Shown one piece after another: positions 5,839-33,369 of a stretch of 64,000 nt of DNA. The notes below the pieces were generated by a model. That model made no database searches. It was not told the DNA's origin and saw nothing but the letters and a program-made list of their open reading frames with translations. The DNA lies in assembly GCA_028289605.1 (NCBI GenBank), contig JANQON010000003.1, forward strand, positions 124,001 through 188,000, given 5' to 3'. Every line of letters starts with the position of its first letter. The stretch's first letter is position 1. A program made the translations under genes and the position numbers. This DNA is from Hyphococcus sp. (GTDB lineage: Bacteria; Pseudomonadota; Alphaproteobacteria; Caulobacterales; Parvularculaceae).

Positions 5839-6978
5839 ATGCCTCTAGTCCTTACCGAAGAACAGGAAATGCTGCGCGAGTCCGCGCGCGGCTTTCTCGA
5901 TGAAAAAGCGCCCGTTTCCGCGCTCAGGAAGCTTCGCGACGAGAGTAACGCCGACGGTTTTGATCGCGGTCTGTGGAAAGAGATGGCGGAGATGGGCTGG
6001 GCCGGCATTCTTGTGGATGAAGCCCATGGCGGCGCGGATTTCGGTTTTGTCGGCGCAGGGCTCATCGCCGAAGAGATGGGCCGCACCCTGTCGGCCTCGC
6101 CCTTCCTGTCGACGTCGATCCTCGCTGCAACGGCGCTGAAGAAAATCGCCGGCGATGCGCAACAACAGGAGCACCTGCCCAAAATCGCCGCGGGGGAGGC
6201 CTTGTTCGCCCTTGCCGTTGATGAAGGCGCGAAACACCGTCCGGCGGCGACGGCGATGCAGGCGGAAAAGCACGGCAACGGGTTTAAACTGTCGGGATCG
6301 AAAACCTTCGTCGCCGACGGCGCGGTGGCGGACAAGATCATCGTCGCGGCCCGCAGCGCCGGGGCGCCGGGCGAAAAAGAGGGCCTGACGCTGTTTCTCG
6401 TCGACGCCGCCGCCGGCGGACTTGAGAAAGAACGCACAGTCATGGTCGACAGCCGGGGCTATGCGCGTCTTGATTTCAACGGCGTTGAAGCGACCGGCGA
6501 TGATGTTCTGGGCGAGGTCGACAATGGTTACGAGGCGCTTGAAGGCGTCTTGTCGGCGGGCCGCGCCGGTCTCGCCGCCGAGCTTTCGGGCGCCGCGCAA
6601 CAGGCCTTCGCGATGACGACCGATTACTTAAAAGAACGTAAGCAATTCGGGACCGAAATCGGTACCTTCCAGGCGTTGCAGCATCGCGCGGCGCATCTTT
6701 ACTCCGAGCTTGAGCTTGTGAAATCGGCGGTCCTCAAGGCGTTGCAGGATCTCGACGCCATGTATGGCGCGGCGGGACTGTCCTGTTCGCTCGCCAAGGC
6801 AAAGGCCGGCGAAGTGGCCAAGCTGGCGAGCCAGGAAGCCGTGCAGATGCATGGCGGGATTGGCATGACCGACGAGTATGATATTGGCTTTTACATGAAG
6901 CGCATTCGCGCGGCGCAGGAAATGTTCGGCGACGCCGCTTTTCACGCGGACCGTTTCGCCAAACTGCGCGGTTATTAA
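5839..6978 (+). CDS. Acyl-CoA dehydrogenase, FAD-contact subunit type
   Basis: A 379-residue acyl-CoA dehydrogenase family protein with all three domains. It contains R-K-Q-F-G (Arg267 to Gly271) and Q-M-H-G-G-I-G (336-342), the motifs that hold FAD across the subunit interface. It ends soon after at F-A-K-L-R-G-Y without the usual catalytic Y-E-G-T block. Its partner at 4443 has the glutamate block and lacks these FAD motifs. I infer a mixed alpha2beta2 enzyme. ATG at 5839 follows GAGAGACTC. It is 24 bases from the following MaoC gene, so these two are co-transcribed. Confidence 0.9.
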   Translation: MPLVLTEEQEMLRESARGFLDEKAPVSALRKLRDESNADGFDRGLWKEMAEMGWAGILVDEAHGGADFGFVGAGLIAEEMGRTLSASPFLSTSILAATALKKIAGDAQQQEHLPKIAAGEALFALAVDEGAKHRPAATAMQAEKHGNGFKLSGSKTFVADGAVADKIIVAARSAGAPGEKEGLTLFLVDAAAGGLEKERTVMVDSRGYARLDFNGVEATGDDVLGEVDNGYEALEGVLSAGRAGLAAELSGAAQQAFAMTTDYLKERKQFGTEIGTFQALQHRAAHLYSELELVKSAVLKALQDLDAMYGAAGLSCSLAKAKAGEVAKLASQEAVQMHGGIGMTDEYDIGFYMKRIRAAQEMFGDAAFHADRFAKLRGY

Positions 6979-7001
6979 TTCTAAACCGAGGAGCCACCCC
7001 C

Positions 7002-16464: not shown

Positions 16465-16562
16465 GCCCTGCGCCGGCGCCTGAGCGAATCGTTGACTCGC
16501 CTGCGCCGCGCACTATTCTCTGCCTCGACGCGAACAGGCGACGCCTGCCTTGCGTCTTTCAT

Positions 16563-16765
16563 GCGGGAGAGATCGGACGCATTTGTCAGTCTAAATGGGC
16601 CCGGCGCCGAAGGAGCAACCGCCCCGGAAACTCTCAGGCAAAAGGACCGCATGAGCAGCTACAGGCTGGAAAGCGGGCGCTGATCGTCAGCGCCCCGCCG
16701 AAGGAGTAAGCGGGCGGCGCGGCGCCTTCCCCGTGAAATCTCTCAGGCGCCCATGACAGCCGGGG
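16563..16765 (+). ncRNA. Tandem glycine riboswitch (two aptamers)
   Basis: Two consecutive aptamers lie in front of the glycine cleavage genes. Aptamer 1 opens with GCGGGAGAG (P1 arm GCGG at 16563-16566, closing CCGC at 16647-16650) and has the conserved GCCGAAGGAGCAA and ACTCTCAGGCAAAAGGAC. Aptamer 2 opens near 16664 (GGCTGGAAAG, closing CAGCC at 16757-16761) and repeats GCCGAAGGAGTAAG and ATCTCTCAGGCGCC. These are the signature core sequences of the family. Glycine binding normally switches on gcv expression, letting the cell degrade excess glycine. Confidence 0.96.
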
Positions 16766-31096: not shown

Positions 31097-31477
31097 TTAA
31101 AACAACAGGTCCGCGGCGAAAAAGGCGAAAAATCCCCCAATGAGATAAACGCCGACGGCGACGACGAGGATTGTCGTGCCGCGGCGTCGCGCCCGCGCGC
31201 AGGCGCGAGCCGCCTCGGGATCGATGGGACACGGCGCGTTGCGGCTCAGCCATTTCGCCGCCGTTGCGGCGACCAATAAGACGCCGGCGCCGACGAACAG
31301 CGCGCCTTTGTGGGCGGTCAGCCAGATCAGGCCTGGCACATTGGCGGCGAGACCGGCCATCACCGCGCCGGCGCCCACGGTGACGAGCAACGCCGGCAAT
31401 GCGCAGCAAATGAGCGTCGTGCTGCTGGCGAAGAGGGCGATCATCGGCCCCAGGGTTTCACGAAGCATCATCCGCAT
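31097..31477 (-). CDS. MerT-like small membrane protein with a cysteine pair
   Basis: A 126-residue protein with about three membrane helices (residues 12-45, 50-75 and 98-122). It carries a vicinal Cys24-Cys25 pair in the first helix (T-L-I-C-C-A-L-P-A-L) and two more cysteines, Cys83 and Cys93, in the loop before the last helix. Mercuric transporter MerT has the same layout, with its pair at 24-25 and two loop cysteines, so metal passage through thiols is likely. ATG at 31477 has GGAGG seven bases upstream and overlaps the end of the previous gene. Last gene of the CsoR cassette. Confidence 0.72.
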   Translation of the reverse strand: MRMMLRETLGPMIALFASSTTLICCALPALLVTVGAGAVMAGLAANVPGLIWLTAHKGALFVGAGVLLVAATAAKWLSRNAPCPIDPEAARACARARRRGTTILVVAVGVYLIGGFFAFFAADLLF

Positions 31478-31949
31478 TATCGCCTCCGCGCAACGCGGCC
31501 TCGCCCCGCCGGATAGCGGCGGTGCGGTATCCGGCTTTTTTGACAAGCGTCGTAATCATCTCGTCGCCCAGCGTCGCCTCTGGTCTTAGAACGAGGCTCA
31601 GCGCCTTGGTGTCGAGATCCACATAGGTCGACGCCACTTCCGCGCGCTTGCTGAATGTCTTGTTCATCGCCTTGGCGCAGAAGTCGCAGACGACGCCCAG
31701 AATATCGATAACGATGGGCTCGCCGCCTGCGGCGAGCGCCGCATCGATTTCGGCGGTTCTTGTGAGTATGGCGGCCGATCGATCGGTTGGCGCATCATCC
31801 AGGGTATCGTCCTGATGGCGGTGACCTTCTTCATGGTCATGCGCGAGATGGTCATGGTTTTCATCATGATGCTGATGATCGTTGGGGCTGGCGACCGCCG
31901 GATACGCCAGCGCCGCAAAAGCAAATGCGAGAATGAGTGTTTTGGTCAT
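31458..31949 (-). CDS. Exported His-rich protein with a MerP-like heavy-metal domain
   Basis: A 163-residue protein with a signal peptide (cut near A-V-A-S, about residue 20). A histidine- and acid-rich linker follows (H-Q-H-H-D-E-N-H-D-H and H-D-H-E-E-G-H-R-H, about 25-45). A C-terminal HMA-like domain (about 80-145) has the metal loop G-V-V-C-D-F-C-A in place of the usual G-M-T-C-x-x-C. It would bind Cu, Hg or another soft metal in the periplasm and pass it to the MerT-like partner whose gene overlaps this one. ATG at 31949 follows GGAA. The metal is inferred from the CsoR context. Confidence 0.75.
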   Translation of the reverse strand: MTKTLILAFAFAALAYPAVASPNDHQHHDENHDHLAHDHEEGHRHQDDTLDDAPTDRSAAILTRTAEIDAALAAGGEPIVIDILGVVCDFCAKAMNKTFSKRAEVASTYVDLDTKALSLVLRPEATLGDEMITTLVKKAGYRTAAIRRGEAALRGGDNADDAS

Positions 31950-31964
31950 GGTCGTTGGTTCCAA

Positions 31965-32609
31965 TCAGAAACGATAAGTGAAATTTGCAAGCGGCTGGTC
32001 GTCGGTAACGCTCCAGCCAAGTTCCAAAAGCGCTGATCCTTTGAAAAACCGCACCAGCGGCGTCACGCCCACGGGATCGGGGTTGTCGGGACGATGGTCG
32101 ATTTCGACCATCAGCCAGGTGTGAAGATCGCCCGTATCGCCTTCGTAAGGGGCAAAGCCGAAGCGCGCGGCGTGAAAAGTGCTGGAATCGACCCCGCCCG
32201 CCTCAAACAGGCGGGCCCGATAGGACGCAAACCACCGCCGGGTTTCCCAGTCGGCGAGGACGCCGACAAAGGCGGCGGCCCGCGAGCCGGCGTCGTTTTC
32301 AGCGACGCCTGTGGCGACGCCGGCGCCGCCAAAGACATAGATGTTGGCCTGATAGTTTTCGCCGAACCATCGGTTAACGAGATAGGTCGCCTGCGGACCG
32401 TTGAACACAAAGTCCTGCCGCCGGTCCCATTCGCTGCGCCACCCGAGAGAAAACGTCGGCGTCAGCGTGTAATGAACCCAGGCGGAGGTCGACTGGCGAT
32501 CGGTTTCTTCAATGACCGTCCATCCGCCCTCATAGGATACCGGACGCGCCTCGGCGTTTCCGATTGTCCATATGGCAAGGGCGGCGATGACGGCGAGACT
32601 GCGCGTCAT
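31965..32609 (-). CDS. Exported beta-rich protein, probable outer-membrane barrel
   Basis: A 214-residue protein with a signal peptide (cut after N-A-E-A, about residue 21). The mature part alternates aromatic and polar residues in short strands (S-A-W-V-H-Y-T-L-T-P-T-F-S-L-G-W-R-S-E-W and similar) and ends in N-F-T-Y-R-F. The terminal Phe and final amphipathic strand are the outer-membrane barrel signal; about eight strands fit. It lies between the His-rich genes of the CsoR cassette, 15 bases from the HMA-domain gene. A metal pore or sensor role is only an inference. Confidence 0.65.
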   Translation of the reverse strand: MTRSLAVIAALAIWTIGNAEARPVSYEGGWTVIEETDRQSTSAWVHYTLTPTFSLGWRSEWDRRQDFVFNGPQATYLVNRWFGENYQANIYVFGGAGVATGVAENDAGSRAAAFVGVLADWETRRWFASYRARLFEAGGVDSSTFHAARFGFAPYEGDTGDLHTWLMVEIDHRPDNPDPVGVTPLVRFFKGSALLELGWSVTDDQPLANFTYRF

Positions 32610-32677
32610 AGCGTTGAGCCTTTTTGAATCTGCAAAAAAAGAAAAATGCGTGCGACGACGTTTGTCGCTTATGCCCG

Positions 32678-33061
32678 TTAAGCGCGGGGCGGGGGCGGGT
32701 CTATGCGATCCGCATACCCCATATTACGCGATATCGGAAACGCCATGACGGTATGCGGGGCGTCTTGATTTAAGGACGCCTGTGCGGGCAGCACGGAGGC
32801 CGCCGGCGCTGCGCATCCGTCGCAACCGGGCCCGCCTTTGCAGTCCTCGTCGCATCCGTGATGCTGCGGCGCGTCCGGCGCGTCCGGCGCGTCGTCGTTC
32901 ATCGGCCCATGCGGCATATGCGCGTGGTGAGACTCATCTGACCCCATATGATCGTGCGCCGAGGACATTGTCGCCGGCGCCCCGTCCATTGCGTGCGCGC
33001 ATACGGTCGGTGCGTTGAAAACGGTCGCCAAAGCGAGAATCAACGCCGCGAGCAGTTTCAT
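32678..33061 (-). CDS. Exported His/Met/Cys-rich metal-binding protein
   Basis: A 127-residue protein with a signal peptide (cut near V-C-A-H-A, about residue 23). The mature chain is rich in His and Met (H-D-H-M-G-S-D-E-S-H-H-A-H-M-P-H-G-P-M) and then has a cysteine cluster C-D-E-D-C-K-G-G-P-G-C-D-G-C (four Cys). Met/His runs and Cys clusters are typical of copper scavengers. Its ATG overlaps the csoR stop (33058-33061), so it is the second gene of the cassette. No known family was recognised. Confidence 0.68.
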   Translation of the reverse strand: MKLLAALILALATVFNAPTVCAHAMDGAPATMSSAHDHMGSDESHHAHMPHGPMNDDAPDAPDAPQHHGCDEDCKGGPGCDGCAAPAASVLPAQASLNQDAPHTVMAFPISRNMGYADRIDPPPPRA

Positions 33062-33333
33062 TTTTTGCGCCCGCCCAGAACCGCGACCAGTTCATCGACC
33101 TTTTCCCGTCTGGCGGCCATGTTGTCGCCGGCCAGGGCCGCCTCGACACAGGTCTCAAGATGATCGTCAAGCATCACCTGCTCCAGCCCTCCGAGCGCGG
33201 CTTTGATCGCCTGCACCTGGCGGACGACGTCGATGCAGTATCGGTCTTCGGACACCATGCGCGCGACGCCGCGCACCTGCCCCTCAATGCGGGCGAGGCG
33301 TCTGGCTGCAGCGGTTTTGGTGGCGTCTTTCAT
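33058..33333 (-). CDS. csoR: CsoR-type metal-sensing repressor
   Basis: A 91-residue all-helical repressor of the CsoR/RcnR (DUF156) family. The copper fingerprint is complete: Cys33 in R-Y-C-I-D-V, His58 and Cys62 in D-D-H-L-E-T-C-V. RcnR and FrmR proteins differ at these places, which favours Cu(I) sensing. ATG at 33333 was chosen as M-K-D-A-T-K. The operator at 33340-33356 directly abuts it, and an in-frame extension would read through the operator. It leads the operon csoR, His-rich protein, barrel, HMA protein, MerT-like protein and would release it when metal rises. Confidence 0.9.
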   Translation of the reverse strand: MKDATKTAAARRLARIEGQVRGVARMVSEDRYCIDVVRQVQAIKAALGGLEQVMLDDHLETCVEAALAGDNMAARREKVDELVAVLGGRKK

Positions 33334-33339
33334 GTCTAA

Positions 33340-33369
33340 ATACCCTAGGGGGGTATTGTTTTCTGTCAA
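33340..33369 (-). promoter_or_regulatory. CsoR operator overlapping the csoR promoter
   Basis: ATACCC-TAGGG-GGGTAT (33340-33356) is a perfect 6-5-6 palindrome of the G/C-tract form typical of CsoR operators (TACCC...GGGTA). On the minus strand a TTGACA -35 lies at 33369-33364 and, after 16 bases, TAGGGT as -10 (33347-33342) sits inside the operator. The predicted start point is within two bases of the csoR ATG, so the message would be nearly leaderless. Confidence 0.75.

Follow-up and report, generated by a model that had tools for sequence, protein, structure and literature searches.

In a 64,000-nucleotide stretch of DNA from Hyphococcus sp. (assembly GCA_028289605.1, contig JANQON010000003.1, positions 124,001 to 188,000 of the forward strand; the whole stretch is called the window here), five minus-strand genes running from 33333 to 31097 lie behind one exact CsoR-type operator (Table 1). 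They encode a CsoR-type repressor, an exported protein rich in His, Met and Cys, an outer-membrane barrel, an HMA-like exported protein and a MerT-like membrane protein. Between consecutive genes there is, in that order, an overlap of 4 bases, a gap of 68, a gap of 15 and an overlap of 20 bases. A preliminary description of the locus had seen five same-strand genes behind a single operator, three junctions that overlap or span 15 bases or less, and hence one unit, and each of these points holds. The core of the operon is a triad in fixed order: the barrel, an HMA-like protein with a CDFC motif and a MerT-like protein with four cysteines. As discussed below, the triad apparently belongs to a real, conserved and undescribed copper operon.

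Table 1. Features of the operon, in window coordinates
Feature	Position	Strand	Remarks
CsoR operator ATACCC-N5-GGGTAT	33340..33356	minus	upstream of csoR
csoR	33058..33333 (gene runs 33333-33058)	minus	CsoR/RcnR-family repressor
exported His/Met/Cys-rich protein (leader)	32678..33061	minus	127 residues
leader-to-barrel gap	32610..32677	minus	68 bases
outer-membrane barrel gene	31965..32609	minus	ARPVSY after signal peptide, ends in F
HMA-like gene	31458..31949	minus	exported, His-rich, motif GVVCDFCAKAMNKTF; MerP/CopZ-like carrier
MerT-like gene	31097..31477	minus	inner membrane; CC in first transmembrane segment (TM1), CPxDPxxAxxC loop before last transmembrane segment

The preliminary description had named genome neighbourhood comparison as a check on whether the genes stay together elsewhere; the triad is kept together in two classes of bacteria. 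A scan of genome contigs with the HMA protein gave 12 loci, and the barrel, HMA and MerT-like genes stand in order in 12/12. Barrel profile matches were found in 19 of 385 genomes of the class and in 4 of 398 genomes of a phylum sample, two of them shared with the class sample; the triad order is present in 18 of the 20 barrel loci of these samples. A broader barrel profile matched 11 of 321 genomes of a second class, one of which (G471) was already known. Together the 44 barrel loci from the two classes hold 44 barrel, 43 HMA and 42 MerT-like genes. L067, with a weak partial barrel match and no HMA or MerT, was left out of this set, and L071 and L072 were not counted as triads. Among the 44, L137 stops at the contig end and L055 has no MerT. 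The order in L055 (5699-7259) is HMA(CEPC)-barrel-HMA(CDFC)-csoR, with csoR directly after HMA and an extra HMA gene in front; in L133 a MAPEG-family gene lies between the HMA and MerT-like genes (5973-6395). Clustering of the neighbours of 35 loci showed, apart from the triad, csoR and the leader, one family in 9 loci and others in 4 or fewer, and the nine-locus family, where inspected, consists of frames antisense to the triad. Plasmid carriage of the triad was rejected after a tblastn search in which the HMA, MerT-like and barrel proteins had no match among 72,556 plasmid records.

Partial arrangements occur as well. Locus L071 (G015, 6085-6996) is an apparent natural deletion, in which the barrel and HMA genes are lost and csoR, the operator and the beginning of the leader continue straight into MerT. 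A MerT-like match was found in 15 of 60 relatives, including a second family of HMA/MerT pairs that lacks the barrel; such HMA(CPFC)/MerT-like pairs stand at L075-L080, in relatives of the same genus and family.

Family searches, also suggested in the preliminary description, placed CsoR above its Pfam cut-off and the HMA-like protein below, and gave no significant Pfam or NCBIfam match for the barrel or the MerT-like protein. The barrel had been put forward as an outer-membrane candidate, which is borne out by a predicted structure of 12 strands with a mean predicted local distance difference test score (pLDDT) of 85, in addition to the signal peptide and the C-terminal F. PF07642 (beta-barrel porin-2) is weakly matched by 4 of 13 barrel relatives, with a best E of 0.0085. 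Foldseek with the barrel model returned 12 matches at E<=0.001; 11 carry titles naming an outer-membrane barrel or barrel domain, and the title of the other, 5g26, is silent. The best match is KdgM, but as TM-scores reach only 0.51 this reflects a general fold and no close relative. As modelled, the protein is the member of a new family of 12-stranded outer-membrane beta-barrels.

The HMA-like protein has a CDFC motif plus a His-rich stretch. It matches PF00403 with 17.9 bits (E 0.004) against a cut-off of 24.8, and its best PDB matches are HMA domains of copper ATPases. Across relatives the motif is CDFC with few variants. Since the Pfam match falls below the cut-off, the HMA identity rests on motif and conservation. 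The earlier reading of a His-rich exported HMA-domain protein is supported to this extent, though the domain assignment itself misses the Pfam threshold.

The third component has three transmembrane segments and four cysteines, C24 and C25 (the CC pair in TM1) and C83 and C93 in a loop, the MerT layout that had been noticed at the outset. The Pfam MerT model (PF02411) does not match the window protein, nor anything in the organism's own genome at E 0.001; it is weakly matched by 4 of 15 members of the MerT-like family (best E 3.7e-5). Profile alignment with hhalign against the Pfam-MerT members gave 90% probability and E 1.6e-6, with the CC pair and the loop cysteines in register. By profile comparison, then, the protein is a distant homologue of MerT. 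Conservation of the membrane cysteines, on which the preliminary description had staked its proposal, is nearly complete: all 42 relatives have the CC pair and 41 of them each of the loop cysteines, with the remaining one cut by a contig end. The loop with C83 and C93 is rich in positive charges and so, under the positive-inside rule, probably cytosolic; the loop cysteines of MerT are likewise on the cytosolic side. As a separate observation, L072 (G013, 6062-6439) is a lone MerT-like gene with its first loop cysteine replaced, and is possibly decaying.

The CsoR protein scores 92.9 bits with PF02583 (cut-off 22.8), and its closest relatives of solved structure are CsoR copper sensors. C33, H58 and C62 are its sole Cys and His residues, confirming the copper fingerprint claimed for it earlier. 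The operator is the only site with at most one mismatch in the window. The organism's genome (4.29 Mb) holds one further exact site, which was discarded as it falls within a tRNA-Ser gene, and three sites with one mismatch; these are at chance level, because the pattern gave 5 matches genome-wide and a reversed control pattern 4. Only one CsoR gene was found in the genome. For these reasons CsoR appears to serve mainly the triad operon. A TTGACA hexamer was recognised by eye at 33369-33364, and a consensus promoter scan called no promoter at csoR. The csoR ATG lies only 6 bases downstream of the operator, so the message likely has a short or leaderless 5' end.

The operator recurs in 21 of 21 other start regions of first genes (17 exact, 3 with one mismatch, 1 with two mismatches). 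Of these regions, 19 belong to other loci that have csoR adjacent; the remaining two are L139, which showed no csoR, and the deletion locus L071, whose site appears after the start since its csoR start was placed too far upstream. In nine loci (L065, L066, L132, L133, L135-L139) the CsoR-type site and the start codon of the barrel gene, whose protein begins MGI, overlap; this suggests that their messages too are likely short or leaderless. An operator-like site at L057 was rejected, as it lies inside the barrel coding sequence.

The second gene had been described by the His, Met and Cys content of its exported product. By its motif, spacing and position it reads as a regulatory leader and not as part of the relay. 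Its Cys cluster ends in CDGC and is followed, after 38 residues, by a C-terminal PPPPRA. With the signal peptide judged by eye it passes the CutF-like filters given in the available text of PMC9973294, namely fewer than 150 residues, a signal peptide, a metal motif, PP in the last 15 residues and a same-strand gene downstream within 1000 nucleotides. No Pfam match was found for it at E 0.05 or better, and its score with CopL_fam NF033807 (26.7 bits) is below the 40-bit cut-off. A script that required a Cys motif, then 36-46 residues, PP within the final 15 residues and a stop codon 10-100 bases ahead of the next gene found this pattern in front of 18 of 34 barrel genes, against none of the 286 other genes called in these loci. 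The 34 count one contig twice (L022, L070), include a wrong start at L068, and leave out L055, where no start was found, and L067; none of these has a leader. Two further leaders, at L130 and L131, lie beyond this count, and a row for L065 from a looser filter was dropped (228-base gap, no Cys spacing). The Cys-to-proline spacing is 38 in 7 of 7 members of the window's clade, with variable sequence in between; the available text on CruR gives 45 residues between its two motifs (PMC9426467).

The gap between leader and barrel contains a weak terminator-like hairpin (32668-32652, followed by a T run) and, as a second signal, a T run that could pair with the AAAAGG Shine-Dalgarno sequence. Neither signal is above chance in the window (6 terminator-like sites vs 3.4 +/- 2.1; pairing p 0.25). 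Over 18 leader loci the folding z-scores range from -3.0 to +0.7 and fall below -1.9 in four (L051, L052, L053, L058). Shine-Dalgarno complementarity reaches p 0.03 in seven loci of the window's clade, driven by L018 and L019. CutF and CruR are published nascent-chain copper leaders, as far as the available texts go (PMC9973294, PMC9426467), and the exported protein is most likely a CutF/CruR/CopL-like nascent-chain copper sensor and not a carrier.

The same triad stands behind different sensors. Among the 44 loci the leader alone precedes it in 17, leader plus CsoR in 3 and CsoR alone in 17. CueR accounts for 1 locus, a different MerR-family regulator for 1, a multicopper oxidase with CusF upstream for 1 and the operator alone for 2; one locus has no sensor found and one ends with its contig. 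The CueR of L056 (TIGR02044) scores 149.8 bits vs a cut-off of 147.4. At L069, upstream of a distant triad copy, the multicopper oxidase (PF07732, PF07731) and CusF (PF11604) are above cut-off. On one FastTree tree of the joined triad proteins, with leader plus CsoR as a label of its own, parsimony requires 10 changes of sensor label over 40 labelled tips vs a mean of 17.7 for shuffled labels. To judge from these gene contexts, CsoR is a sensor that can be exchanged for several others, and the core of the system lies elsewhere. The earlier picture of a CsoR-run MerT/MerP-like relay with its own barrel is thus retained in its unit and operator, and given up in the place it assigned to CsoR. That one effector has several exchangeable and mostly copper-type sensors is the strongest argument that the metal is very probably copper, where Cu(I), Hg(II) or another soft ion had all been left standing.

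The genes can be fitted to a copper-induced operon that lowers copper stress and whose core is a copper relay across three compartments. This reading is put at about two chances in three. CsoR would stay on the operator and let go on binding cytosolic Cu(I); fingerprint and operator are seen in the sequence. During translation of the leader, its Cys cluster would meet copper while the C-terminal prolines slow the ribosome, probably giving a second copper-dependent check on the downstream genes, as the motif, the spacing and what the available texts on CutF and CruR report suggest. The periplasmic HMA-like protein would bind Cu(I) through CDFC, aided by the His-rich stretch, and the MerT-like protein would pass it by cysteine exchange between the CC pair in the membrane and the CPxDP...C loop on the cytosolic side. 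The barrel in the outer membrane would give the outer step. The triad would in this way move copper between cytosol, periplasm and outside, along a path that its parts make plausible. On sequence grounds the balance only leans to copper removal over import, because CsoR and CueR are copper-inducing and many carriers show no Cu-ATPase to receive imported copper; the sign of response of both sensors is well known.

Several observations weigh against this reading. First, several CsoR relatives (for example at L055, L059, L065, L066 and L135) have an extra N-terminal HPCH motif, which makes the metal of those relatives less certain; it could differ. Second, the MerR-family sensor of L064 scores best with a zinc-sensor model (127.5 of 143) and at 118.2 of 147.4 with CueR, both below cut-off. 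Third, across 14 diverse members the barrel keeps no Cys, His or Met invariant, a pattern that suits a channel more than a copper-binding protein. Fourth, the structure model of the MerT-like protein is poor (pLDDT 65), and a fold search with it gave nothing. Fifth, a CutF-type stem-loop shielding the Shine-Dalgarno sequence is unsupported over the 18 loci (combined p 0.24), and CruR, in the available texts, has the opposite sign to CutF (PMC9973294, PMC9426467), so that the regulatory sign of the leader is uncertain. In addition, 7 of 31 triad-less genomes lack a Cu-ATPase match too; G194, one of ten triad genomes without this match, also has no MerT gene; and certain neighbours, described below, fit copper uptake.

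The main rival is copper import, in which the barrel or a TonB-dependent receptor admits copper, the HMA and MerT-like proteins carry it inward for cuproenzymes and a CruR-like leader shuts the operon at sufficiency. In mer, MerT and MerP carry metal into the cell. The triad has TonB-dependent receptors nearby in L060, L133, L137 and L139, and L135 is followed by a PepSY_TM-like protein (28.2 bits, cut-off 28.8). The available portion of PMC9426467 places CruR at the head of a TonB-receptor operon that copper represses, and in that of PMC12914433 copper TonB receptors often stand alongside PepSY_TM proteins. Yet control by CsoR and CueR, like the operon that includes a multicopper oxidase and CusF, indicates that excess copper is the inducer, and among the gene contexts listed a receptor was recognised only at L060 and L061, the latter a neighbour of the same length with a start nearly identical to that of the L060 receptor. 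Import is accordingly rated unlikely. Sequestration without transport, the barrel, HMA and MerT-like proteins merely buffering copper at the membranes, would suit the His-rich stretch and the absence of an energy-coupling subunit among the five genes; it is improbable, as the loop cysteines, which lie on the positively charged and probably cytosolic side and are kept in 41 of 42 relatives, suggest passage, and so does a barrel with no fixed copper ligands. A mer-type uptake pair controlled by a CsoR-like sensor and handling mercury or a mix of soft metals is very improbable and was set aside: the MerT-like protein is a distant MerT homologue with a MerP-like partner, but the sensors and named neighbours are mostly copper-type and the Pfam MerT model is, as noted, unmatched in the organism's own genome.

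A wider claim would make the triad an ATP-free and self-sufficient trans-envelope copper relay of outer-membrane channel, periplasmic HMA shuttle and MerT-type cysteine relay in the inner membrane. In two classes of bacteria with small genomes it could then take the place of Cu-ATPases and CusCBA, under interchangeable CsoR, CueR or leader sensors. This is offered tentatively and is more doubtful than not. A Cu-ATPase match is missing in 10 of the 25 triad genomes examined, a count that leaves out ten further carriers from the second class, and a CopA-type oxidase exceeds its cut-off in 3 of 25 triad vs 11 of 31 triad-less genomes. The triad therefore need not feed a Cu-ATPase or a CopA oxidase. 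Given the 7 of 31 triad-less genomes, the absence of Cu-ATPases is permissive evidence only, and the statement that the triad replaces them was rejected, since genome size confounds the comparison.

The operon is flanked by a Flp pilin gene (PF04964) and, at its other end, by a Polyketide_cyc2-like gene (below cut-off), both seemingly unrelated to it. Elsewhere in the window is a glycine riboswitch aptamer (16554-16659, plus strand, RF00504, 69 bits).

The triad can be compared with known systems. In CopABCD/PcoABCD an outer-membrane barrel, a periplasmic carrier and an inner-membrane protein follow one another in the same order under copper-type control, and L069 places a multicopper oxidase first, as copABCD does. 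Unlike that set, the triad has a Pfam-unmatched barrel, an HMA-like protein in place of CopC and a MerT-like protein with three transmembrane segments in place of CopD; none of the operon's proteins matches the CopB, CopC or CopD families in Pfam or NCBIfam. Like MerP-MerT of mer, to which there is remote profile homology, it places behind a periplasmic protein of HMA type a small membrane protein that carries CC in TM1 and a pair of loop cysteines; it differs in being unmatched by Pfam MerT, in its CPxDPxxAxxC loop, its own barrel and its copper-type sensors. The triad thus reads as a CopB/CopC/CopD set made of mer-type parts. The window CsoR resembles that of M. tuberculosis (PDB 2hh7) in its Cys-His-Cys fingerprint and GC-rich dyad operator, but differs from CsoR repressors in that its sole genuine exact site found in its own genome is that of the triad operon. 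The leader shares with the CutF/CruR/CopL leaders (DUF2946-like) an exported product under 150 residues, a Cys motif, C-terminal prolines and a place upstream of metal genes, as described in the available texts of PMC9973294 and PMC9426467; unlike them it heads a barrel-HMA-MerT unit, its shielding stem is unsupported and it has no Pfam match. A search of the open-access literature found no description of the triad combination, and the suggestion that this is a distinct metal-handling system is apparently right.

If the copper reading is true, MerT-type proteins are not mercury carriers alone but may form the inner-membrane step of a copper system, and an unnamed family of outer-membrane barrels would be tied to copper. 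The triad would also be a candidate copper-handling route for bacteria without Cu-ATPases. With CsoR, CueR and leaders repeatedly replacing one another in front of a single effector triad, the loci also provide a natural test set for how copper leaders work. Should the relay turn out to export copper on its own, it would go beyond one further copper-controlled system for handling metal across the envelope.

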